Assembly: GCF_000311785.1 (NCBI RefSeq)
Contig: NZ_HE978535.1
Coordinates: 571,922 to 635,921, forward strand
DNA: 64,000 nucleotides
Direction: 5' to 3'
DNA from: Brevibacillus massiliensis
GTDB taxonomy: Bacteria > Bacillota > Bacilli > Brevibacillales > Brevibacillaceae
This document shows positions 6,501 through 37,103 of the stretch, piece after piece. Position 1 is the first letter of the stretch; the number at the start of each line of letters is the position of its first letter. Below the pieces are notes generated by a model that saw only the letters and a list, made by a program, of their open reading frames with translations, ran no database searches and had not been told where the DNA came from. The position numbers were made by a program, and so were the translations under genes.

Positions 6501-6671
6501 ATGTTTGCCTTTTTTAAGAAGGTATTCACTCATACTTGTGACAAATGCAATCATCCCCTGGAGGCCATACATACGGCTTTAGGATGTGTGAAAGTTTGCC
6601 CGGAAGGTCATTACAAGGAGGAAACATACTGCCATCTCGAGATACGGATTGTTTATGATGACTTGAAATAA
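6501..6671 (+). CDS. Small zinc-ribbon-like protein, 56 aa
   Basis: This short frame starts with MFAFFKKVFTHTCDKC and ends with EIRIVYDDLK. It holds CDKC, then GCVKVC, then a late Cys-His pair (TYCHLE), a pattern typical of tiny zinc ribbons. It starts 38 bases behind a consensus -10 and ends exactly in a symmetric terminator, so its boundaries look like those of a real transcription unit. No clear Shine-Dalgarno sequence is visible. It lies antisense to the unalignable 5' part of the ABC-F relic and converges on tusA. I do not recognise the family; a metal- or sulfur-stress role is only suggested by the promoter half-site. Confidence 0.6.
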   Translation: MFAFFKKVFTHTCDKCNHPLEAIHTALGCVKVCPEGHYKEETYCHLEIRIVYDDLK

Positions 6672-6695
6672 GCGAACACGTTTGCAGTGTTCGCT
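6671..6695. terminator. Terminator shared by the 56-aa gene and tusA
   Basis: AGCGAACAC-GTTTGCA-GTGTTCGCT is a perfect 9-bp stem between convergent genes ending at 6671 (+) and 6707 (-). The flanking T and A runs are short, so efficiency is uncertain. Confidence 0.7.
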
Positions 6696-6706
6696 CATTT
6701 CCTCAC

Positions 6707-6934
6707 CTACTTCTTTCTTACAAAAAACGTAAATACCCCATTTTCCTCTTCGTGCTTCATCATTTCGTGGTTTGTTTGCTTTACCCAAGCTTGAAAGTCG
6801 TTTACAGAACCTTTATCTGTCGCGATTACTTTCATCACCTGACCTGGCTCTAGGCTGTCCAATGCCTTTTTCGCTTTCACAATGGGCATGGGGCACGCCA
6901 ATCCTTTTGCATCAACGACAATGTCTGCTTGCAT
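6707..6934 (-). CDS. tusA: Sulfur carrier protein TusA
   Basis: This 75-aa TusA/SirA-family protein carries persulfide sulfur on the conserved Cys14 of the signature GLACPMPIV. It passes sulfane sulfur between rhodaneses, DsrE-type proteins and acceptors in the cytosol. Length and motif are standard. It is the last gene of the sulfur operon, 35 bp behind the rhodanese-MBL gene, and the context points to detoxification of reactive sulfur rather than tRNA thiolation. Confidence 0.92.
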   Translation of the reverse strand: MQADIVVDAKGLACPMPIVKAKKALDSLEPGQVMKVIATDKGSVNDFQAWVKQTNHEMMKHEEENGVFTFFVRKK

Positions 6935-6969
6935 TCTTCATCTCTCCTGACTATTCGTTTTTGTTTGTC

Positions 6970-8124
6970 TTATTTGTCGTGAACAGCACAACGGTTTGGA
7001 CCGATTTCCATTTCGCGCTGCTCTTCTTCACTTGGGGTCATTTTCCCCATATTCGTTTGGCGAATCTTTTGATAGGCATTTGGCTGCGGCGGCAAATTCT
7101 CCGTTACTGTTCTTCGGAATTCCGCTTCATCCTGAATGTGTAAACCTGGATTCGTCCGGTACAACTCCCCCATTCGGGCAGAAACCCTGCCGCCCTCACC
7201 CAGTTCGGACACTTTTCCAAAATGGGCGGGAAGTACAATCAGCTCATCCGAAAGCTCTCTGTAGCGCCTGTATAAGGTGCTGCGCAAGTCCTGGGCCCAA
7301 TCCGCTGCTTTGCCGGCCAAGTCTGGGCGGCCGATGGATGCGATGAACAAAATATCTCCTGTCAGCAAATACGTATCGTCAACAAGCAAGGAGGTGCTGC
7401 CGATTGTATGACCGGGGGAGTAAATCGGCTGGATCTTGATTTTGGTGTTGCCGACGGCAATCTCTTTGCCCTCTTCCAGTTTTTCGTAGCTGAACGTTAC
7501 CTCTGCCGCATCTTTTGGCGGGAGCCAGTAGGCTGCCCCTGCCTTGTCGGCTAACTTTTTCCCGCCAGAAATGTGGTCAGCGTGCAGGTGGGTATCGATG
7601 GTATGCTGAATGGAGACGTTCCTATCTTGGGCGAATTTCTCGTAAACCTCCGTCATCCTCAAAGTGTCAACAACGGCTGCCTCACCGTCGGAGATCACCA
7701 TGTAAGACAGGCATCCTTTGCCGATCCGAACAAATTGATAAATCGCACCGCCAGCTTTCAAGTCACCGATTTTGACGGGTTCCAAATGCTCACTCCAGGC
7801 TTTCATCCCGCCTTCAAGATAATAAATATTGGACCTTCCGGCTTCGACCATTTGCTCCGCGACAAATTTGGATGAACCTTCTTTGGCGCAGACCACAAGC
7901 ACTTTTTTATGTTCGGGAATCTTGTCCAGCGCGGAGTCTACACCCTCGAGCAGCTCAAAATACGGGAGATTGACGACCTCAATCTTGTCTCCCTCGATTT
8001 TCCAATCGTTATATTCAGTTTCACTGCGTACGTCGAGGATAAACAATTCTGCTTGATTGAAAACAATCTGCGCCAATTCTTTTGCAGACATTTTCTTTAA
8101 ACCCCCGGCTGTATTCACGGTCAT
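6970..8124 (-). CDS. Rhodanese-metallo-beta-lactamase fusion (persulfide dioxygenase-like)
   Basis: This 384-aa protein has an N-terminal rhodanese (residues ~10-115, active Cys79 in VVCAKEGSS) joined to a metallo-beta-lactamase domain (~120-370) with the metal motif THLHADH (H179, H181, D183, H184) and later SPGHT, LLTGD and LPAHFG. Such MBL domains are persulfide dioxygenases of the ETHE1/CstB group, which oxidise glutathione- or low-molecular-weight-thiol persulfides. In Staphylococcus CstB the MBL domain comes first and rhodaneses follow, so here the order is reversed. It sits between the DsrE-like gene and tusA, consistent with a persulfide relay. The reaction is inferred from family membership. 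Confidence 0.88.
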
Positions 8125-11340: not shown

Positions 11341-12504
11341 CTATCGAATGCCCGCAAGAGCAAGGACGAGGCGCATACGCTCGCTTGCCATTTCGGGATC
11401 GCGCAGCAGGCCGGCCTTGTCGGCGAGAACGAAGATGTGGGAAAGATGGACCACCGATCGTGCTCCCTCCACCCCGCCGATCATCCGAAAATGAGACTGG
11501 TGGCCGTTCAAATACGCCAGAAATACGATGCCTGTCTTGTAGGCGTAGGTCGGCTCTTGGAAAATGTGTCTGGATAATGGCACGGTGTTCTCCAGAATCG
11601 CATCGTAACGGTTTAGATCCCCGGCATCGAGAGCATGTAGTGCAGCGGCAGCCGCTGGAGCGATCGCGTCAAAGATTCCGAGCAGGGCGTGGCTGTATCC
11701 ATGCTGATCGCCTCGAATCAAGGCTGGATAGTGAAAGTCGTCCCCGGTGTACATCTTGACGTTTTCCGGCAGCAGTCTCCGCATTTTGATCTCTTTGTCC
11801 GCGTCCAGCAGAGAGATTTTGATGCCGTCCACTTTGTCGCGGTGTTCCCGAATGATCCGCAGGCAGACCGACATCGCTTCATCGACATCTTCACATCCCC
11901 AATATCCTTTCAATGCGGGATCAAACATGTCGCCCAGCCAGTGCAGGATCACCGGTCGGGACACCTGGCGGAGAATTTTCCCGTAGACTCGTTCGTAATC
12001 ATCCGGCTGCCTTGCACAAGCTGCCAAAGCCCGGCTAGCCATCAGGATGATTTGCCCGCCTTTCTCCTCTACAAAGGAACACTGCTCTTCATAGGCTGCT
12101 TCCACTTCATCCAGCGTCACCCGTGCTGCCGGCGTCAGATGATCCGTACCCGCCCCGCAGGCGATATGCCCTCCCACAGACCGGGCCTCTATCATGGAGC
12201 GGCTGATCAGTTCCTTCGCCTGCTTCCAAGCAAGTCCCATCCCGCGCTGGGCCGTATCCATCGCCTCCGCAACCGAAAACCCCAGCGACCACAGATGATG
12301 GCGATACTGCATGGTCGCGTTCCAATCAATCTGGGACTGGTGCAGGGGATCGGCGTCCGCCAAAGGATCGCATACGACATGCGCCGCTGCAAAGGCTGTT
12401 CGACACCGCGGTCTTCCCGATGGCAGCGCAAAGGAAGGTCCGTTTCCCGGAACATAGGCAAAAAGTGAGCCGTCCCGACCAGGCAATCTTATTTCCCGAG
12501 ACAT
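11341..12504 (-). CDS. DUF993 family protein (DHDPS-like TIM barrel)
   Basis: This 387-aa protein matches the DUF993 family, distant relatives of dihydrodipicolinate synthase-type aldolases. Recognisable parts are RPRCRTAFAAAHVVCDP near the start, HIACGAGTDHLTP, VILHWLGDMFDPALKGYWG and GIKISLLDA, the last carrying a lysine where class I aldolases form the Schiff base. Such genes are regularly found beside Gfo/Idh/MocA dehydrogenases and TIM-barrel isomerases, exactly as here (12 bp behind one, 10 bp before the other). A retro-aldol or hydrolytic step on an oxidised sugar is an inference; no reaction has been fixed from sequence. Confidence 0.85.
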   Translation of the reverse strand: MSREIRLPGRDGSLFAYVPGNGPSFALPSGRPRCRTAFAAAHVVCDPLADADPLHQSQIDWNATMQYRHHLWSLGFSVAEAMDTAQRGMGLAWKQAKELISRSMIEARSVGGHIACGAGTDHLTPAARVTLDEVEAAYEEQCSFVEEKGGQIILMASRALAACARQPDDYERVYGKILRQVSRPVILHWLGDMFDPALKGYWGCEDVDEAMSVCLRIIREHRDKVDGIKISLLDADKEIKMRRLLPENVKMYTGDDFHYPALIRGDQHGYSHALLGIFDAIAPAAAAALHALDAGDLNRYDAILENTVPLSRHIFQEPTYAYKTGIVFLAYLNGHQSHFRMIGGVEGARSVVHLSHIFVLADKAGLLRDPEMASERMRLVLALAGIR

Positions 12505-12515
12505 CTGATTCCCCC

Positions 12516-13667
12516 CTACACGTCCAACTTGGGGACGTCGACCCAGCGGCGTTCACGCCAGGAAACAAGCCCCAGTTCAGCCAGTTGCGTACCTTTGGCG
12601 CCCTCCAGCAGATCCCATGGGAACGGAGTAGCCGCAACCACATGCTTGAGGAACAGCTCCCACTGAATCTTGAACGCATTGTCGAAGACTTGATTGTCCG
12701 GCACCTGCTGCCACTGATCGAAGTAATTGAACGGGTTTGGTATGTCCGGGTTCCATACCGGTCTTGGCGTGTTCACCCGATGCTGAACCTTGCAATCGCG
12801 AAGTCCCGCTACGGCGCTTCCCTCTGTTCCATCAACCTGTATCGTCAGCAGATCTTCCCTGTTTACCCGCACGGCCCAGGAGGAGTTGACGTGCACGATA
12901 ATCCCCCCCTCCAGTTCAAACGTGGCATAGGCCGCATCCTCTGCTGTGCATGGATACGATTCTCCCTTTTCGTCCACGCGCCGGGGAATGTGGGTGACAC
13001 CGAGACACGAGAGGGCGCGAACTTCACCGAACAGATTGTCCAAGACATACCTCCAGTGAGGGAACATATCCAAAATCATGCCGCCGCCGTCTTCCGCGCG
13101 ATAATTCCAGGAAGGCCGCTGCCCTGGCTGCCAATCCCCCTCAAACACCCAATAGCCAAACTGCATGTTAACGGACAAGATCCGCCCAAAGAAACCAGCA
13201 TCCACAAGCCGCTTCAACTTCAATAGTCCGGGCAGGAACAGCTTATCCTGCACGACGCCATTTTTGATGCCCGCCGCACGGGCCAATCGGGCCAGTTCGA
13301 GAGAATCTTCCAGATTGGAGGCAGTTGGCTTTTCGCAGTAGATGTGTTTTCCCGCTAAGATTGCCTTGCGAATATCTTCCGCCCGGCGGTCGGTCGTCTG
13401 CGAGTCAAAATAGATGACGTTATAAGGGTCTTCCAAACACTCCTCCAAATTGGTGCTGTAGCGTGCAAGGTTGTGCGCCTCCGCCAACCCCTGCAGCTTC
13501 TGCTCATTTCTGCCGGCCAGGATCGGGTCCGGCATGATCACATCCCCGTTCGGCAGGGAAACGCCCCCTTGATTCCGAATGGCGACGATGGAACGGATCA
13601 GATGCTGATTGGTCCCCATCCGACCGGAAACGCCATTCATGATAATGCCCAGCTTGTGTACTGTCAT
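12516..13667 (-). CDS. Gfo/Idh/MocA family oxidoreductase
   Basis: This 383-aa NAD(P)-dependent dehydrogenase has an N-terminal Rossmann fold (GIIMNGVSGRMG; DVIYF-equivalent NVIYFDSQT) and the family signature EKPTA in HIYCEKPTASN around residue 135. A C-terminal alpha/beta sugar-binding domain follows, with DMFPHWRYVLDNLFG carrying the Asp-x3-His pair. It probably oxidises a hydroxyl of a sugar or cyclitol delivered by the upstream transporter, giving a keto compound for the downstream proteins. The start has AAAGGAG at proper distance. Confidence 0.92.
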   Translation of the reverse strand: MTVHKLGIIMNGVSGRMGTNQHLIRSIVAIRNQGGVSLPNGDVIMPDPILAGRNEQKLQGLAEAHNLARYSTNLEECLEDPYNVIYFDSQTTDRRAEDIRKAILAGKHIYCEKPTASNLEDSLELARLARAAGIKNGVVQDKLFLPGLLKLKRLVDAGFFGRILSVNMQFGYWVFEGDWQPGQRPSWNYRAEDGGGMILDMFPHWRYVLDNLFGEVRALSCLGVTHIPRRVDEKGESYPCTAEDAAYATFELEGGIIVHVNSSWAVRVNREDLLTIQVDGTEGSAVAGLRDCKVQHRVNTPRPVWNPDIPNPFNYFDQWQQVPDNQVFDNAFKIQWELFLKHVVAATPFPWDLLEGAKGTQLAELGLVSWRERRWVDVPKLDV

Positions 13668-29297: not shown

Positions 29298-30221
29298 CTA
29301 GTAGTTGTTCCACAAGTAAAAAGTAGCATATGCCTCCCAGCCGGCCCAATTCGCGAACAGCTGCTGCAGCTCAGAAGGCGTCGGCTTGCGGTCCATGCCA
29401 AGCAGTTTGCGGACGGCGTTCTGCAGTCCGGCATCGCCGATGGGAAACGCCCGCGGATCGCGAAGGCAGCGCATCCGCACATAATGCGCGGTCCACGGCC
29501 CGATGCCGCGGATACGGACCAGCTCTCGCTCAGCGGCGTCGAAGTCGCCGAGCGCAAGCAGCTTGTCACGGGACAGCTCGCCGCGGCGCATGAGGGCAGC
29601 CGTCTCGAGTACGGCCGCCGCCTTTGCGCGCGTCAGCTGGAGCGCCTGCAGTTCAGCCACATCGACGCCGGCGAGCGCAGCAGGTTCCGGGAAGCGCCGG
29701 TACGTTCGGCCTTCCCAGAGCGTGCTTTCGCCGTATGCCTCGGTCAGCCTTGCCTTGAGCTTATAGGCGAAGGCAAGGTTGACCTGTTGGCCGACGATAG
29801 CCCAGCAGAGCGCCTCGAACAAGTCCGGGATGCCGATGATCCGCAGCCCGTAGAGCCGCTCGGCCAATACGCGAAGCACCGGATCGCCGTCAGTCAGCTT
29901 TTGCCACGGCCCCAGGTCCCGGTCCAGATCGAACCAATCGCGGATATAGCGCTTCACCGACTCCAGCTCGCTTTCGCTGCCCGGCTCGCCTTGCAGGAAG
30001 CGTACCTGCAGCACCTGATCGTCCGGACAGGAGATTTCCAGCAGCAAGCTGCGGCCGGGGGTGGTTCCCTGCTCAGTCTCACTCGCCACCGCCACCAGCC
30101 TGATAATCTTTCCCTCGCAAACCTCGTACAAGCTTTCAAGCGGCGATCTCGTCATATACCCGAGGCATCGCGTGAAACGGAACGGCTGCCCTACTGCCAA
30201 CTCAAAACCGGAAGCGCTCAT
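29298..30221 (-). CDS. alkA: DNA-3-methyladenine glycosylase II
   Basis: AlkA removes 3-methyladenine and other alkylated bases from DNA. The ~307-aa product has an N-terminal beta-rich domain and a helix-hairpin-helix glycosylase domain. It shows ALCWAIVGQQVNLAFAYKLK, the HhH motif RIRGIGPWTAHYV and the catalytic Asp region FPIGDAGLQ. It is the third gene of the adaA-ogt-alkA operon and overlaps ogt by about 20 bases. The Met at 30221 has GAGG nine bases upstream; an earlier Met at 30230 is possible. The region is clearly more GC-rich than its surroundings. Confidence 0.94.
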   Translation of the reverse strand: MSASGFELAVGQPFRFTRCLGYMTRSPLESLYEVCEGKIIRLVAVASETEQGTTPGRSLLLEISCPDDQVLQVRFLQGEPGSESELESVKRYIRDWFDLDRDLGPWQKLTDGDPVLRVLAERLYGLRIIGIPDLFEALCWAIVGQQVNLAFAYKLKARLTEAYGESTLWEGRTYRRFPEPAALAGVDVAELQALQLTRAKAAAVLETAALMRRGELSRDKLLALGDFDAAERELVRIRGIGPWTAHYVRMRCLRDPRAFPIGDAGLQNAVRKLLGMDRKPTPSELQQLFANWAGWEAYATFYLWNNY

Positions 30222-30753
30222 GGCCGCCATCCTCTACACCTTCGATGCCTTCCAGCTTGAGCAGCCTGCGCTTCATCTCGAGACCGCCGCGAAAGCCTGT
30301 CAGCTTGCGGTCGGCGCCGACAATCCGGTGACACGGCAGCAGCACCGGCACCGGATTGGCGCCGTTGGCCGCGCCGACGGCCCGCACTGCCTTCGGCCTT
30401 CCGACGGCCTCCGCAATGTCGCGGTACGTTCTGGTTTCCCCGTACGGCACGTTTCCAAGCGCAGTCCACACCTGCTTTTGGAACGGCGTGCCGATCAGAT
30501 CGAGAGGCACATCGCGGAACGAAACCTGTTCCCCCGCAAAATAGGCCCGCAATCGATCGATCACGCCGGTCCGCTGCAGTGCCGCTGCATCTTCCTTCGG
30601 CTCGACCCCTGGCGCAATCCGTTTTAACCAGTCCCGCCAATCCTTCAGTCCTTCATGCGGAAAAACGATCCGGCACACGCCGCCCTCCGTCGCCATGATC
30701 AGCCAGTTCCGCCCTTCAAGCTCCAGCCTTGTCCACATCAATTGTGTTCTCAC
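30202..30753 (-). CDS. ogt: Methylated-DNA-[protein]-cysteine S-methyltransferase
   Basis: This suicide repair protein transfers the methyl group of O6-methylguanine or O4-methylthymine to its own Cys. The 183-aa product shows the winged helix GETRTYRDIAEAVGRPKAVRAVGAA (shortened here to its ends), the asparagine hinge and the active-site PCHRIVGA. The GTG start at 30753 overlaps the stop of adaA as GTGA and is preceded by GGAGGG at eight bases, a textbook coupled start; a longer frame begins at 30780. It corresponds to adaB of Bacillus subtilis. Confidence 0.95.
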   Translation of the reverse strand: MRTQLMWTRLELEGRNWLIMATEGGVCRIVFPHEGLKDWRDWLKRIAPGVEPKEDAAALQRTGVIDRLRAYFAGEQVSFRDVPLDLIGTPFQKQVWTALGNVPYGETRTYRDIAEAVGRPKAVRAVGAANGANPVPVLLPCHRIVGADRKLTGFRGGLEMKRRLLKLEGIEGVEDGGHERFRF

Positions 30754-31358
30754 CGCATGTCCCTCCAATTCCTGGTCCATCCTGCCAATGCCTGCCTATT
30801 TCCGCGATGCCCTTCGCGATACGCCGACGGGGTGACCCTGGTCAGTCTGCGAAACCATACGGCAAAATGCGACGCGCTGCGAAAACCGACGGCGGCGGCT
30901 ACTTCAGACATCGTCAGCCTTCCGCTTTCCAGCAGCCGCTTTGCTGCCGACAGCCTCGTCTGATGCAGCCGCTCCATTGGCGTCAGCCCGGTCACACGCT
31001 TATAGGTACGCTGCAGATGATACGGACTGATCGCCAGCTTCTGTGCGATCTGCTGCAGCGTAATCCGTTCGCCGTAACAAGCGTCGATCACAGCGTCGGT
31101 CTGCGCTGCCAGCAGCCCGTCGGGGCCAAGAGCGCCGGGTGTCTCCGGCTTGCAGCGCTTGCAGGGCCGGAACCCGTCCCGAATGGCAGCCTCCACACTT
31201 GGGTACAGCGTAATATTTTCCTTCTTGGGGGTTTTGGCACGGCAGGAAGGCCGGCAGACGATCCGCGTCGTTTTCACCCCCGTGTAATAGATCCCGTCGT
31301 AAGTCGACTCTTTCTTGACGATCGAATCGTACACCTTATCGAACAACTCTGCGTCCAT
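30750..31358 (-). CDS. adaA: Methylphosphotriester-sensing activator AdaA
   Basis: AdaA repairs methylphosphotriesters by accepting the methyl on a zinc-bound Cys, which turns it into an activator of the ada operon. The 202-aa product has the N-terminal zinc site Cys35, Cys39, Cys66 and Cys69 (RIVCRPSC, PCKRCKP), with Cys35 as acceptor by analogy to E. coli Ada. A C-terminal AraC-type double HTH follows (ITLQQIAQKLAISPYHLQRTYK; TMSEVAAAVGFRSASHFAVWFRR). GGAGGG precedes the start. It heads the operon with ogt and alkA and should autoregulate it. Confidence 0.95.
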   Translation of the reverse strand: MDAELFDKVYDSIVKKESTYDGIYYTGVKTTRIVCRPSCRAKTPKKENITLYPSVEAAIRDGFRPCKRCKPETPGALGPDGLLAAQTDAVIDACYGERITLQQIAQKLAISPYHLQRTYKRVTGLTPMERLHQTRLSAAKRLLESGRLTMSEVAAAVGFRSASHFAVWFRRLTRVTPSAYREGHRGNRQALAGWTRNWRDMR

Positions 31359-31887: not shown

Positions 31888-33516
31888 CTAGGCTTCATAG
31901 ACGATGCTGCCATCCATCATCGTCAAGCATACTTTCGTCTGACGAATCTCTTCTGCATCGACCGCGAACAGGTTGCGGTCCAAAACGATCAGATCGGCCA
32001 GCTTTCCCGCCTCCAAGGTGCCAAGCTCGTGTTCGCGGAAATTGCCGTAGGCAGACCCGAGCGTATACGCCCGCAGCGCTTCCGCCAGCGTAATCCGCTC
32101 AGCGGGGATCCAGCCCCCTGCCGGTTCTCCGTCATTGTGCAAACGAGTCACCGCGCGGTAGATCTCAAGCATGGGGTCGAGGGCGACCACCGGGAAATCG
32201 CTGCCGAAAGCCAGCTTTGCTCCCGTTTTCAGCAAGGAATGGATCGGCCAGGCATAGGGAATGCGCTTGGGACCCAGGCGAGACACGTACGCATTCTCGG
32301 CAAATCTCTCCGCGGAGGCGATGTGCTCCGGCTGCATGGAGGCGATTACGCCAAGTTTGCCAAAGCGGCTGATATCCCCCGGATCGATGACTTCGATGTG
32401 TTCGATCGTATGGCGGGAGTCCCGCACGCCGTTTTTGCGCCGCGCTGCTTCGAAACAATCCAAACCCAGCCGGACCGCGGCATCCCCGCAGGCGTGATAG
32501 CGAATGCGAAAACCCTCCCGATCGGCCTTGATCGTCCATTCATCGATCAGCTCCTGCGGTACCAGTGTAGATCCGCGGGTTGAGGCATTGTCTGAATAAG
32601 GCTCCAGCAAAAAAGCGGTATAGGTGGCCGGCACACCGTCGAGAAAATTCTTCAATCCGGAAAATTGCAGCTTTCCTGACTTGTATTCTTCCCGCAGCCG
32701 CCTGGGTCTTTCCAAATCACCATTGCATTCTACCAAAAAATGTATGCGTACGGTCAATTGGCCCGTTTCGTCAAATTCGCGGTACATGTCGAGATTGCCC
32801 AATTCCATCGTAACCAATGGGAACATGTCTGCCACAGAAGTGACGCCGAGACTGGCGGCATGACGCAAAAACCCTTGCAACAGGCTGATTCGGCGCTCCC
32901 GCGGAAATTGAAAGGCCTGCTTTGCCAAAGCCATCGCGGACTCGTACAAAAATCCCGTGGGCTCCCCCGCCCCGTCACGGGCAATCGCTCCATAGGGCGG
33001 GTCGGGTGTATCGCGCGTGATCCCTGCCAATTTCAACGCTTTGCTGTTCAGCCACGCGCCGTGGCACTCTGCATTGAACAAAAACACCGGGCGGTCGGGC
33101 ACGTATTTGTCCAAGGTGGAGCGGTGCGGAAGCTGTTTGTTCTCCCAGTACAGGTGATACCAACTAAATCCGATGATCCAGGGATCGTCCGGACGCTGGT
33201 CGGCGTACTCTTTGACCATCCGGGCCGCTTCTTCTGCCGATTTGGCCTTCCAGAGATGGACGCACTGTTGCTGCAAGCTTCCCAGCAGCAGATGGATATG
33301 AAAATCGTGAAAGCCAGCCATGATCAGTTGATCGCCGTAGCGAAGCACCTTGGTATCCGGGCCGACCAGGTTTTCGATCTCCGATAGAGTGCCGACAGCG
33401 AGAATCCGGTTTCCTTTTACAGCGACACCTCCTGCCCTCGGCCGATCTTCGACCCCGGTAAAAACAGCGTTGCTCATCAAACAACAGTCTGCAAATCCGG
33501 CATGCTGTGTTGACAT
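31888..33516 (-). CDS. YtcJ-like metal-dependent amidohydrolase (Amidohydro_3)
   Basis: This 542-aa amidohydrolase-superfamily member hydrolyses amide or ester-like bonds of small molecules in the cytosol. Visible are the metal motif FHDFHIHLL (HxH, residues ~73-75), the long insert typical of YtcJ-type proteins, FRIRYHACGDAAVRLGLD, the HTIEHIEV histidine and GSDFPV (metal Asp). It ends with the beta-sandwich strand KLADLIVLDRNLF. GGAGGAG supports the start. It follows the APC permease by 20 bp, so the imported amino acid or amine derivative is the likely substrate. Confidence 0.92.
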   Translation of the reverse strand: MSTQHAGFADCCLMSNAVFTGVEDRPRAGGVAVKGNRILAVGTLSEIENLVGPDTKVLRYGDQLIMAGFHDFHIHLLLGSLQQQCVHLWKAKSAEEAARMVKEYADQRPDDPWIIGFSWYHLYWENKQLPHRSTLDKYVPDRPVFLFNAECHGAWLNSKALKLAGITRDTPDPPYGAIARDGAGEPTGFLYESAMALAKQAFQFPRERRISLLQGFLRHAASLGVTSVADMFPLVTMELGNLDMYREFDETGQLTVRIHFLVECNGDLERPRRLREEYKSGKLQFSGLKNFLDGVPATYTAFLLEPYSDNASTRGSTLVPQELIDEWTIKADREGFRIRYHACGDAAVRLGLDCFEAARRKNGVRDSRHTIEHIEVIDPGDISRFGKLGVIASMQPEHIASAERFAENAYVSRLGPKRIPYAWPIHSLLKTGAKLAFGSDFPVVALDPMLEIYRAVTRLHNDGEPAGGWIPAERITLAEALRAYTLGSAYGNFREHELGTLEAGKLADLIVLDRNLFAVDAEEIRQTKVCLTMMDGSIVYEA

Positions 33517-33536: not shown

Positions 33537-34889
33537 TTATGCGGGTTTGTCCGCTTCATCAAAGCTCAGTTCGGGCGGCCGCCGGGTAAACAGCTTCGTC
33601 AGGTACGCGAGATAAATCACTCCGATCGCGATCCAGATGCAGCCCAGCGTGAAAGAATGAGAATCGAGATTGGTCCACAGCCAAAGGGTAAAGCATGCGC
33701 CGATCAAAGGGACGAGCAGGAATCGGATGATGTCCGGTCCGCTCCGGCGCTGATTGCGGATAAAGTAGTGGGAAATCACGGACAGGTTCACGAACGTGAA
33801 TGCTACCAGCGCGCCAAAGTTGATGAACGAGGTGGCCGTTACCAGGTCGACGAACAAGCCGGAGACGGCAAAGATGCCAACGAGCACGATGTTAAACACC
33901 GGCGTTTTGAACTTGGGATGGATGTAGCCAAACAGTGTATGGGAGATCACCCGGTCGCGGCCCATCGCGTACAGAAGCCGGGAGACGCTGGCATGTGCCG
34001 ACAAACCTGAAGCGAAGCAAGCGGTAATCATCCCGGCGATGAACACAGACCCGAACAGGATGCCGCCGACAAACTCCGCGATTTCCGAGGCGGCTGAGTC
34101 TGCGTTCTGGAAGCTGGCGTAGTCCGGATATACCATATGCGCGACATAGGAGACGATGATAAACAAAGCGCCCCCGATCAAGGTGACGAGCAGAATCGCC
34201 TTGGGGATGGTCTTCTGGGAATTGATTGTCTCCTCTGACAGCGTTGTTACGGCGTCAAAACCGAGGAAGGAGAGACAGAGGATCGATGAGCCGGCGATGA
34301 CGGATGATAATGGCACATCCGGATTGACGAACGGATTGATTGCGACGAGTGTTCCCGTCCCAATGCCATTCATGATTCCTTTGATGGATAAAGCCATAAA
34401 GACGATGATGACCATGGCCTGAAAGACGATCAGCAGCGTGTTGATATTGGTGGTTAACCTGATGCCCAAGATGTTGATCAGCGTCATGACGACGATAAAC
34501 AGGCAGACCCAGATGCCCTGCGGCACGGAAGGAAAAGCGGCAGACAGATAGATCCCGGCCACCAGGAAGTTGATCATGGGCAGAAACAAATAATCCATCA
34601 AAACGGCCCAACCAACCAAAAATCCCACCTGCGGATTCATCGATTTTTGCGTATACGTGTAGGCTGAACCTGCTACCGGGTACGCCTTGACCATCTGACT
34701 GTAGCTGTATGCGGTGAACATCATGGCCGCCAGCGCCAACAAATAGGCCAACGGCAGCATGCCTTGAGAGATTTGCGTGGCGACACCGTATGTCGTAAAG
34801 ACGGTCATCGGTGCCATATAGGCCAATCCGAACAAGACGACAGGCATGAGCGTCAGGGTACGCTGCAGCGAAGCCTGGTTTTTCATCAT
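33537..34889 (-). CDS. APC-family amino acid permease
   Basis: This 450-aa protein has twelve predicted membrane segments of the amino acid-polyamine-organocation type: VLFGLAYMAPMTVFTTYGV (TM1), AYTYTQKSMNPQVGFLVGW and ILCLSFLGFDAVTTLSEET (TM6 unwound region). GGAGGAG precedes tandem start codons at 34889 and 34886. It begins an operon with the YtcJ-like amidohydrolase and is divergent from the MerR-type gene at 35105. Substrate unknown; an amine or N-acyl amino acid is suggested by the neighbourhood. Confidence 0.92.
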   Translation of the reverse strand: MMKNQASLQRTLTLMPVVLFGLAYMAPMTVFTTYGVATQISQGMLPLAYLLALAAMMFTAYSYSQMVKAYPVAGSAYTYTQKSMNPQVGFLVGWAVLMDYLFLPMINFLVAGIYLSAAFPSVPQGIWVCLFIVVMTLINILGIRLTTNINTLLIVFQAMVIIVFMALSIKGIMNGIGTGTLVAINPFVNPDVPLSSVIAGSSILCLSFLGFDAVTTLSEETINSQKTIPKAILLVTLIGGALFIIVSYVAHMVYPDYASFQNADSAASEIAEFVGGILFGSVFIAGMITACFASGLSAHASVSRLLYAMGRDRVISHTLFGYIHPKFKTPVFNIVLVGIFAVSGLFVDLVTATSFINFGALVAFTFVNLSVISHYFIRNQRRSGPDIIRFLLVPLIGACFTLWLWTNLDSHSFTLGCIWIAIGVIYLAYLTKLFTRRPPELSFDEADKPA

Positions 34890-35015
34890 ACCAACTCCTC
34901 CGAATGCAGTTTGCGGTCCAACGATAAAATGAAGGCACTTTCAAAGAGACGAATCGCGGTATCCCCCTCCCCTCTGCTTTTTACCGTACATGATCTAGTA
35001 GTCTTCATATCAATG

Positions 35016-35030: not shown

Positions 35031-35104
35031 TGACCAAAAAAACATGGAGTATACTTTACCTTTTCAGTTAAAATGAAGACCAAAATGATGGGAGGCGTAT
35101 AGCG

Positions 35105-36340
35105 GTGAAAATCGGAGCTTTTGCAAGGCATTTTCATATCTCGATTGATACGGTCCGGTATTACACGGAGCTTGGTCTCCTGGTTCCCAACAAAAGGGAA
35201 AGCCAGCTTCAATTCGATCAAAATTGCTTGGATGACATGCATGTCATTCTCGAATTAAAAAAAATGCGCTTCACGCTCCAGGAGATTCACAAGATTCTCT
35301 CCTTGAAACGGATCACGCAATTTTCCGATATGGAAGATCTTCATTTTTTGGCGGTCATGCTGCAGGAAAAGCAGCGTCAGCTTAGTGGGGAACGCGATCA
35401 ACTCAACCAGTCCATCGAACAGATTGAGGAGAAGCTGCGCTCCATCAGCCGGCAGACCACCGTCGAAAACCGGACAGGGGTCCCGCTTGCTTTCCTTCCC
35501 TTGCTGGCTTGTCCGCACTGCCAGAAATCACTGGATTTGACTGATGCCTGCATTCAAAATCAGGAGGTATTCCACGCCAGTCTGCACTGCTCATGCGGTT
35601 ATCAGGCCAGCATCAAAGAAGGCACCCTGATCACCACTTCCTCTGTATTTCACACCTCCAAACTGCAGTACTCCATTTACGACCAAAACACATGGGACGA
35701 CCTCTCCCCAAGCCTGGTCAGCCTCTGGGAAAAAGGGAGCATGTGGATATATAAACACTTAATGGAACAGGAGCTGGCGAAACGCGTCATTTTAGAGACC
35801 AATGTCGATGTCTACGTGTTCCCCCCGAAACATTTTGCCACCCTGCTGTCTGATGCGCTCTATATTTTCAGCGGGCACGGAGTGGCGACGCTGTCCAAAC
35901 TGAAGAATAAAATCGAGCAGGTCAATCCTGACCTGCAAGCGCTGTACATCGTCAATAGCGATATGATGCTGCCCATCCGCCACGGTTCGATCGATTACGT
36001 GATGGATACCATCTCATTCAACGATTATTCCATGTTTGATCAAGTCTATCCGCTGGCGAAGCTGAATCCGTACTTGACGGAAAGAGCGCAAATATTGGGG
36101 AATCATATGTATTATCCGTCGGGCGCCCGATCCCTGGGCAACATCCCCAAGCTGTATCCCGATCCGCATCCCCGGAATTTCTTGCTGGACTACATGGAGC
36201 AGCATATCCAGCTGCATGGATTTGCCTTTCAAAAACGAGAGTACATAGGCTTTACGACAAACCCAGGCAAATATCTGGACTACCACATCAAGGGCGAGAA
36301 ACTTCATCTTGTCGCCTATCTGGCACGGAGGATTTCTTGA
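35105..36340 (+). CDS. MerR regulator fused to zinc ribbon and methyltransferase-like domain
   Basis: This 411-aa protein starts as a MerR regulator: winged helix MKIGAFARHFHISIDTVRYYTELGLL (given here only as a landmark at residues 1-26), and a dimerisation coiled coil ending near residue 118. A four-Cys zinc ribbon follows (CPHC at 136-139, HCSC at 161-164) of the kind found at the N-terminus of RlmA-type methyltransferases. A ~200-residue domain then resembles a class I SAM-methyltransferase, with GSIDYVMDTISFN at the post-IV position, but without a clear glycine-rich SAM loop. GGGAGG precedes the GTG start. It is divergent from the APC permease operon. It may sense a small molecule through the methyltransferase fold; catalysis is doubtful. 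Confidence 0.85.
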   Translation: MKIGAFARHFHISIDTVRYYTELGLLVPNKRESQLQFDQNCLDDMHVILELKKMRFTLQEIHKILSLKRITQFSDMEDLHFLAVMLQEKQRQLSGERDQLNQSIEQIEEKLRSISRQTTVENRTGVPLAFLPLLACPHCQKSLDLTDACIQNQEVFHASLHCSCGYQASIKEGTLITTSSVFHTSKLQYSIYDQNTWDDLSPSLVSLWEKGSMWIYKHLMEQELAKRVILETNVDVYVFPPKHFATLLSDALYIFSGHGVATLSKLKNKIEQVNPDLQALYIVNSDMMLPIRHGSIDYVMDTISFNDYSMFDQVYPLAKLNPYLTERAQILGNHMYYPSGARSLGNIPKLYPDPHPRNFLLDYMEQHIQLHGFAFQKREYIGFTTNPGKYLDYHIKGEKLHLVAYLARRIS

Positions 36341-36383: not shown

Positions 36384-37103
36384 TCATTGTTTCTTGCAGC
36401 GGGCGATAAATGCTTCAAACAGCCTTTTCATCAGAGGATTCGTGGCGGTCATTGATTCGGGATGCCACTGCACGCCGATGGCAAAAGAGGAGCCCGTGTA
36501 CTCGACTGCTTCAATGATGCCGTCGGAAGCTTTGGCAGCAACTTTCAAATCGTCGGCAACATCCTTCAGCGCCTGATGATGCAAACTGTTTACCCGGATC
36601 CGCTGCTCCCCCAGAATCTCAGCCAACCAGCTTCCCGGCTCAAGGGCAACCGCATGCGTATCCCGGCTCCGCTCCGCTTTTTGCGAGTGCTGCAGCGGCT
36701 CACTCCACTGACTGGGTATATCTTGGATCAATGTGCCGCCCAGGGCGACATTTAAAATCTGTACACCCCTGCAGACGGCGAGCAGCGGGATGTTGTGGTC
36801 CAGCGCATGCCGGATGAGCGCCAGTTCTGTTTCGTCCCGCTCCCGGTTGGTATAGCCCAGATGGGGATGCGGTTCCTCTCCGTAATAGAGCGGGTCGACG
36901 TCCTCGCCGCCGCTCATGATAATTCCGTCGCACAGAGCGGCAGCCTCAAGTGCGGCCTCCGGATTGATAAACGGCAGAACGATCGGGATTCCCCCCGCGG
37001 CCGCTACCGATCTATGGTAGTCATGATGTACGTAGACTCCTTCCATAAACGCATTGTGTTTGATGAAAGCTCCTGTGATTCCGATAACCGGTTTTTGCGG
37101 CAT
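36384..37103 (-). CDS. Peptidase C26 / gamma-glutamyl-GABA hydrolase-like (PuuD family)
   Basis: This 239-aa class I glutamine amidotransferase-like hydrolase cleaves gamma-glutamyl amides such as gamma-glutamyl-GABA. The nucleophile Cys111 is in LLAVCRGVQILN, and the His/Glu pair is in VQWHPES near residue 214. IMSGGEDVDP and GGTLIQDIP are standard for PuuD. The start has AAGGGG upstream. The stop is 44 bp from the convergent MerR-like gene. It fits the general theme of amide and amine use in this region. Confidence 0.92.
   Translation of the reverse strand: MPQKPVIGITGAFIKHNAFMEGVYVHHDYHRSVAAAGGIPIVLPFINPEAALEAAALCDGIIMSGGEDVDPLYYGEEPHPHLGYTNRERDETELALIRHALDHNIPLLAVCRGVQILNVALGGTLIQDIPSQWSEPLQHSQKAERSRDTHAVALEPGSWLAEILGEQRIRVNSLHHQALKDVADDLKVAAKASDGIIEAVEYTGSSFAIGVQWHPESMTATNPLMKRLFEAFIARCKKQ

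Follow-up and report, generated by a model that had tools for sequence, protein, structure and literature searches.

A MerR-type regulator divergent from a permease-amidohydrolase operon

Within the window, i.e., the whole stretch of 64,000 nucleotides of Brevibacillus massiliensis DNA analysed here, a single open reading frame on the plus strand (35105-36340) encodes a protein of 411 aa. It starts with GTG, is preceded by a GGGAGG ribosome site, contains no internal stops and, according to a search of the source genome, is present there as a single copy. The features of the locus, with the evidence for each in brackets, are:

35105-36340, plus strand: putative MerR-(Trm112-like zinc ribbon)-pseudo-methyltransferase regulator, 411 aa (open reading frame, Pfam, AF2 model, 57 family sequences)
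35105-35320, plus strand: MerR winged-helix DNA-binding domain, residues 1-72 (Pfam MerR_1; PDB MerR-family matches)
35330-35449, plus strand: long dimerisation helix, residues 76-115 (DSSP of the model)
35486-35638, plus strand: zinc ribbon, residues 128-178, with Cys136/139/162/164 (invariant Cys; Trm112 profile matches)
35642-36337, plus strand: class I methyltransferase-like Rossmann domain, residues 180-411 (model, structure matches, Pfam-positive class I homologues)
35789-35833, plus strand: former SAM motif I, residues 229-243, ILETNVDVYVFPPKH replacing E[LP]G[ST]GxG (family alignment)
33537-34889, minus strand: APC-family amino acid/amine permease, probable target gene 1 (Pfam AA_permease, E 5.7e-40; same order at locus L035)
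31888-33516, minus strand: YtcJ-type amidohydrolase (Amidohydro_3), probable target gene 2 (Pfam, E 1.4e-98)
34983-35013, minus strand: predicted MerR-type promoter of the divergent operon, TTGATA-19 bp-TACGGT (motif comparison across loci)
35046-35057, no strand assigned: second dyad GGAGTATACTtt, 8/10 consensus positions, probable own-gene operator (family score)

Pfam MerR_1 matched residues 1-66 above its cut-off (E 3e-12; 46.9 bits versus 21.6), and in the AF2 model of the chain (a monomer model, mean pLDDT 91.5) the DNA-binding domain is followed by a long helix spanning residues 76-115, as in the MerR family, where such a helix serves antiparallel dimerisation. Through this domain the protein would be expected to bind DNA. 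The first-pass annotation had placed a MerR regulator, a zinc ribbon and a methyltransferase-like domain in one chain and had described the gene as divergent from a permease/amidohydrolase operon. Both descriptions are borne out, the former by Pfam, the invariant Cys residues and the model, the latter by the position of the permease and amidohydrolase genes, both of which lie on the minus strand.

Just past the amidohydrolase, at 30202-31358 (minus strand), two overlapping genes represent an alkylation-response pair, namely an Ada metal-binding domain with an AraC HTH (AdaA-like) and an O6-methylguanine-DNA methyltransferase (AdaB-like).

A zinc ribbon, probably Trm112-like, joined to a methyltransferase fold

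Structure prediction, which had been proposed at first pass as a check, gave a class I methyltransferase fold, with the C-terminal domain modelled as a class I Rossmann fold. A structure search with this model returned hundreds of class I methyltransferases, with RlmA(I) in first place. This top solved match (1p91; Z 15.4, 235 residues, 4.4 A, 12% identity) aligns with residues 133-411 and so spans both the ribbon and the methyltransferase fold; among the matches listed it is the only one that does, the others beginning later and covering the fold only. For the model of a class I relative (the classes are defined below), the best match was likewise RlmA(I), with a Z of 16.4. By sequence, Pfam detected no methyltransferase family in the window protein, and the RlmA family models of Pfam and NCBIfam gave no match to it at E up to 1, which leaves a clean RlmA relationship at this level unsupported. 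Three relatives in alignment A1 did match the Pfam families Methyltransf_31/25/11. The earlier comparison with RlmA consequently stands for the structure but not for the sequence, by which the ribbon appears to be Trm112-like.

The ribbon follows the pattern C136-P-H-C139 ... C162-S-C164-G. The CPHC/CSCG motifs, already pointed out at first pass, can be taken as real because all four Cys are invariant, both in an alignment of 16 and subsequently in one of 38 sequences. The assignment of the ribbon as Trm112-like is made by sequence: the model NF038101 (Trm112_arch) matched at E 4.6e-4 (20.3 bits, below the cut-off of 77), the regulator alone reached 13.6 bits with the Pfam Trm112 profile (below the cut-off of 22), and the family profile matched PDB chain 6zxw_H, which we take to be a Trm112-like protein, at E 1.7e-8.

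Loss of the SAM motifs in one class of the family

A scan of genome contigs with alignment A2 recovered relatives, where the single protein had found nothing. (Near) full-length relatives occur in six other Brevibacillaceae genomes among the 39 searched (two more match in the MerR part only), as well as in several families of Bacilli, across the Bacillota and in one Thermotogae MAG. The nearest relative is L035 from Brevibacillus fluminis (66-67% identity), and the sole annotated relative found carries only the name "MerR family transcriptional regulator". After their neighbourhoods had been fetched, 57 family sequences were compared, and the relatives were sorted into groups by tree. Class I (16 aligned sequences) retains ExGxGxG in its SAM loop as well as the ribose acid; class II consists of the window protein and 16 others (17 sequences). 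Pfam methyltransferase families are matched by class I proteins but not by class II proteins.

That a glycine-rich SAM loop is missing from the window protein, as the first-pass annotation had suspected, is confirmed by the alignment, in which ETNVDVY stands where class I relatives carry E[LP]G[ST]GxG. The glycine positions of motif I (233, 235 and 237 in the window protein, occupied there by N, D and Y) are Gly in 16/16 class I and in 0/17 class II sequences, and residue 257, which is D/E throughout class I, is replaced in class II by G, A or C (G257 in the window protein). The combination of GxGxG and ribose acid that marks an active class I methyltransferase is thus absent from the window protein and from all of class II, and the window protein also lacks the SAM site of the RlmA family. 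In place of the SAM motif, class II keeps a pattern of its own, E-[TPA]-[NSC]-x-[DE]...P-K, in which the conserved residues are N/S/C, D/E, mostly aromatic ones and P-K, P241 and K242 both being present at 94%. Its invariants further include F255, Y281, G332, S343, P352, G382, P387, G388, H394 and Y405, most of which are variable in class I.

Omega for the methyltransferase domain is about 0.11 between the window protein and L035, a pair whose dS approaches saturation, and the other informative pairs within class II gave 0.11-0.23. Such codon-based estimates indicate that the class II methyltransferase-like fold is under purifying selection, and the conservation pattern is as expected for a pocket that has been retooled. 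Loss of the motif alone is no proof of lost SAM binding, which for class II we infer from the sequences. Pseudogene decay was considered and rejected, given the intact frame, the full-length Brevibacillaceae homologues with 39-67% identity and the low omega.

Further groups carry other degenerate loops, e.g., ELDNCVGRF in L065/L066. These two belong, together with L068 and L069, to a third group with the loop ELDNCVGRF or DPCxCLF, whose regulators are co-directional with a gene for an FAD_binding_2/FMN_bind fumarate-reductase-like flavoprotein. At L107, 6091-6972 encodes a ribbon-methyltransferase alone (294 aa, without MerR) in which the SAM motif is largely intact, and it is possible that this protein gives an image of the captured ancestor.

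Operons associated with the two classes

Class II genes are divergent from transport/catabolic operons that encode amidohydrolase, APC permease, DAO-type oxidase, aldehyde dehydrogenase and amidase. The permease-amidohydrolase gene order of the window is retained at L035 in Brevibacillus fluminis, and the cluster to which the window amidohydrolase belongs (c1) is represented 12 times in the neighbourhoods of the family. In Peribacillus and others, the genes concerned are those for a DAO-type amine/amino-acid oxidase, a betaine/aminobutyraldehyde-type aldehyde dehydrogenase, a MATE exporter, a cupin and an amidohydrolase; the operon faced in Paenibacillus carries an amidase, that in B. reuszeri an M20 peptidase with an SSF symporter and that in Ammoniphilus an HpaB hydroxylase. 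In Vescimonas, the genes faced by a deep relative (L110) are those for a sodium:solute symporter and for a member of the ornithine cyclodeaminase family. For the DAO enzyme, nothing matched in the PDB at E up to 1e-20. The theme shared by these operons would be that amines, amides or amino acids are imported and degraded, and since the neighbouring enzymes differ between paralogues, to assume one class of ligand is guesswork.

In the window, the gene at 36384-37103 (minus strand), convergent with the regulator, encodes a Peptidase_C26 glutamine amidotransferase related to the gamma-glutamyl-GABA hydrolase PuuD, which is in keeping with a theme of amine catabolism; similar genes are also located near the family members L057 and L074. 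Paralogues can occur side by side in one genome. Brevibacillus fluminis G032 harbours four class II members (L035, L036, L039 and L051), each divergent from its own transport/catabolic set. At L067 (G701, Bacillota), two regulator paralogues (6614-7831 and 11486-12637) are about 4 kb apart; only one of them sits directly upstream of an MFS gene, and the second has no obvious start codon before the MerR part of its frame.

An MFS exporter gene is located directly downstream of the regulator on the same strand at 15 of the 19 loci with an intact motif (one of these 15 has an intervening gene) and at 0/37 of the others. The Fisher p of 2e-10 for this association overstates the independence of the loci, because it essentially compares one clade with the rest.

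One could imagine that class II proteins still bind SAM or SAH via a non-canonical loop, and either sense SAM status or methylate a small molecule during induction. The class I methyltransferase fold is, after all, intact in the model, and the sister class I proteins have kept ExGxGxG and the ribose acid. In class II, however, 17/17 sequences have lost the ribose acid along with all three glycines, other residues being conserved there instead, and the operons faced are concerned with amine/amide catabolism and not with methyl metabolism, which makes such a scenario unlikely.

Many MerR proteins sense metals or thiols, and with four invariant Cys the zinc ribbon could itself be the metal or redox sensor, leaving the methyltransferase fold as a mere scaffold. 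We consider this highly unlikely, since conservation of the ribbon does not differ between class I and class II, which is what one would expect of a structural site, since metal-transport or oxidative-stress genes do not recur among the annotated neighbours, and since the C-terminal fold has class-specific invariants of its own.

A predicted promoter with a 19-bp spacer ahead of the divergent operons

In promoters controlled by MerR regulators, the -35 and -10 elements are 19-20 bp apart (PMC8113463). In all 20 class II loci tested, a TTGnnn-19-TAnnnT pair directed towards the divergent gene is located 60-95 nt from the regulator start. In the window it reads TTGATA tgaagactactagatcatg TACGGT (35013-34983, minus strand), and it is conserved at L035 as TTGATA tcaagacggcttgagcatg TACATT. 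For 14 representatives, the summed best score at spacer 19 was 167.5 compared to 96.6 +/- 7.1 in dinucleotide shuffles, which for the divergent direction corresponds to a z of 9.6-10; in the same direction, spacers of 15-18 and 20-23 bp gave z values of -2.2 to 1.5 and a spacer of 14 bp gave 2.6. Nothing comparable to the 19-bp signal was found in the other direction or in class I/III regions, and a forward promoter of the class I/III regulators with 19 or 20 bp spacing, tried as a candidate, likewise gave no signal. The rule had been spotted before it was tested, so that the forward and class I controls serve as checks, together with L110 (Vescimonas), which lies outside the set that defined the rule and has TTGACT-19-TATAAT as its top pair. 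The score of the window promoter (9.2) is the lowest of the set, and an 18-bp pair elsewhere in the region scores 9.3.

Most loci carry a family dyad, GGAGTnnACTCC, ahead of the regulator gene (score 122 versus 89.2 +/- 2.6 in shuffled sequences). The clear signal was obtained with a fixed GGAGT/ACTCC dyad motif that was picked after the sequences had been viewed; a search without a fixed motif gave scattered matches in about half of the loci. In the window the dyads are imperfect, and the one within its own 19-bp spacer is weak.

It appears scarcely plausible that the regulator acts on a target elsewhere and lies next to the permease operon only by chance, for although different paralogues adjoin different operons, the 19-bp promoter points towards the divergent operon in 20/20 loci within a narrow range of distances, and the gene order of the window is retained in Brevibacillus fluminis L035.

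A putative sensor derived from a methyltransferase

From our point of view, it is likely that the protein represents a dimeric MerR-type repressor/activator with an effector domain derived from a zinc-ribbon methyltransferase of the Trm112-like type, which has lost SAM binding and has been retooled for a small molecule. The ligand would most likely be an amine, amide or amino-acid derivative handled by the divergent permease-amidohydrolase operon. This reading draws on computed results, namely the architecture, the fold, the loss of the SAM motif compared to an intact sister class, the selection on the domain, the 19-bp promoters and the operon theme. It also agrees with the first-pass idea of a sensor built on a dead enzyme fold, which is supported as the best reading by SAM residues that are lost subfamily-wide and kept in the sister subfamily, by purifying selection on the domain and by the recurrence of the 19-bp-spacer promoter across loci with different operons.

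As to the mechanism, the ligand-free dimer may occupy the 19-bp spacer (34989-35007), a site deduced from comparison between loci, and keep the promoter inactive. Ligand imported by the permease would then bind in the remodelled former SAM/substrate cleft. Judging from the DNA-binding domain and the promoter geometry, the dimer would in turn undertwist the spacer and thereby align the -35 (TTGATA) and the -10 (TACGGT) elements for RNA polymerase, a mechanism that is established for MerR, CueR, BmrR and EcmrR (PMC8113463, PMC9909328). Repression of its own gene could proceed from the GGAGTATACT dyad at 35046-35057.

Relation to known systems and implications

The multidrug sensors BmrR and EcmrR of the MerR family likewise combine a MerR DNA-binding domain, a long dimer helix and a large C-terminal ligand domain, and they activate promoters with a 19-bp spacer (PMC8113463), the spacing also found in the window. 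Their effector domain is GyrI-like and their target is drug efflux, whereas the regulator described here carries a zinc ribbon with a methyltransferase fold and has an uptake/catabolism operon as its predicted target. The 23S rRNA m1G745 methyltransferase RlmA(I) (1p91) shares with the window protein the succession of zinc ribbon and class I fold, but has a working SAM site and no MerR domain, whereas the window protein has a MerR domain and lacks the SAM motifs. Trm112-like domains fused to methyltransferases have been recorded in some bacteria and archaea (PMC5372719). These fusions are described as methyltransferases and have no DNA-binding domain, and the window protein, whose ribbon matches Trm112 profiles (below the cut-offs when searched alone), differs from them also by the lack of SAM motifs. 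The sensor domains known for MerR proteins include metal-binding, GyrI-like, thiopeptide-binding and cobalamin domains. In the open-access literature searched, we found no description of a MerR-methyltransferase regulator.

Regarding the family as a whole, we see about an even chance that it represents a Bacillota-wide group of one-component regulators that arose when a MerR domain captured a zinc-ribbon methyltransferase and that exists in two states, namely SAM-motif-intact members linked to MFS genes and pseudoenzyme nutrient sensors in which the SAM site has become a ligand pocket. The SAM-motif-intact members are possibly regulators that methylate or that sense through SAM. Within the family, the domains carried on a common DNA-binding chassis form a natural series, from those with an intact SAM motif to those without one, and come together with predicted operators and target operons, so that the transition from enzyme to sensor becomes directly testable. 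Brevibacillus fluminis G032, with its four paralogues, would be a good strain for pairing sensor with ligand, and the family could be a source of new switches that are inducible by amines or amides.
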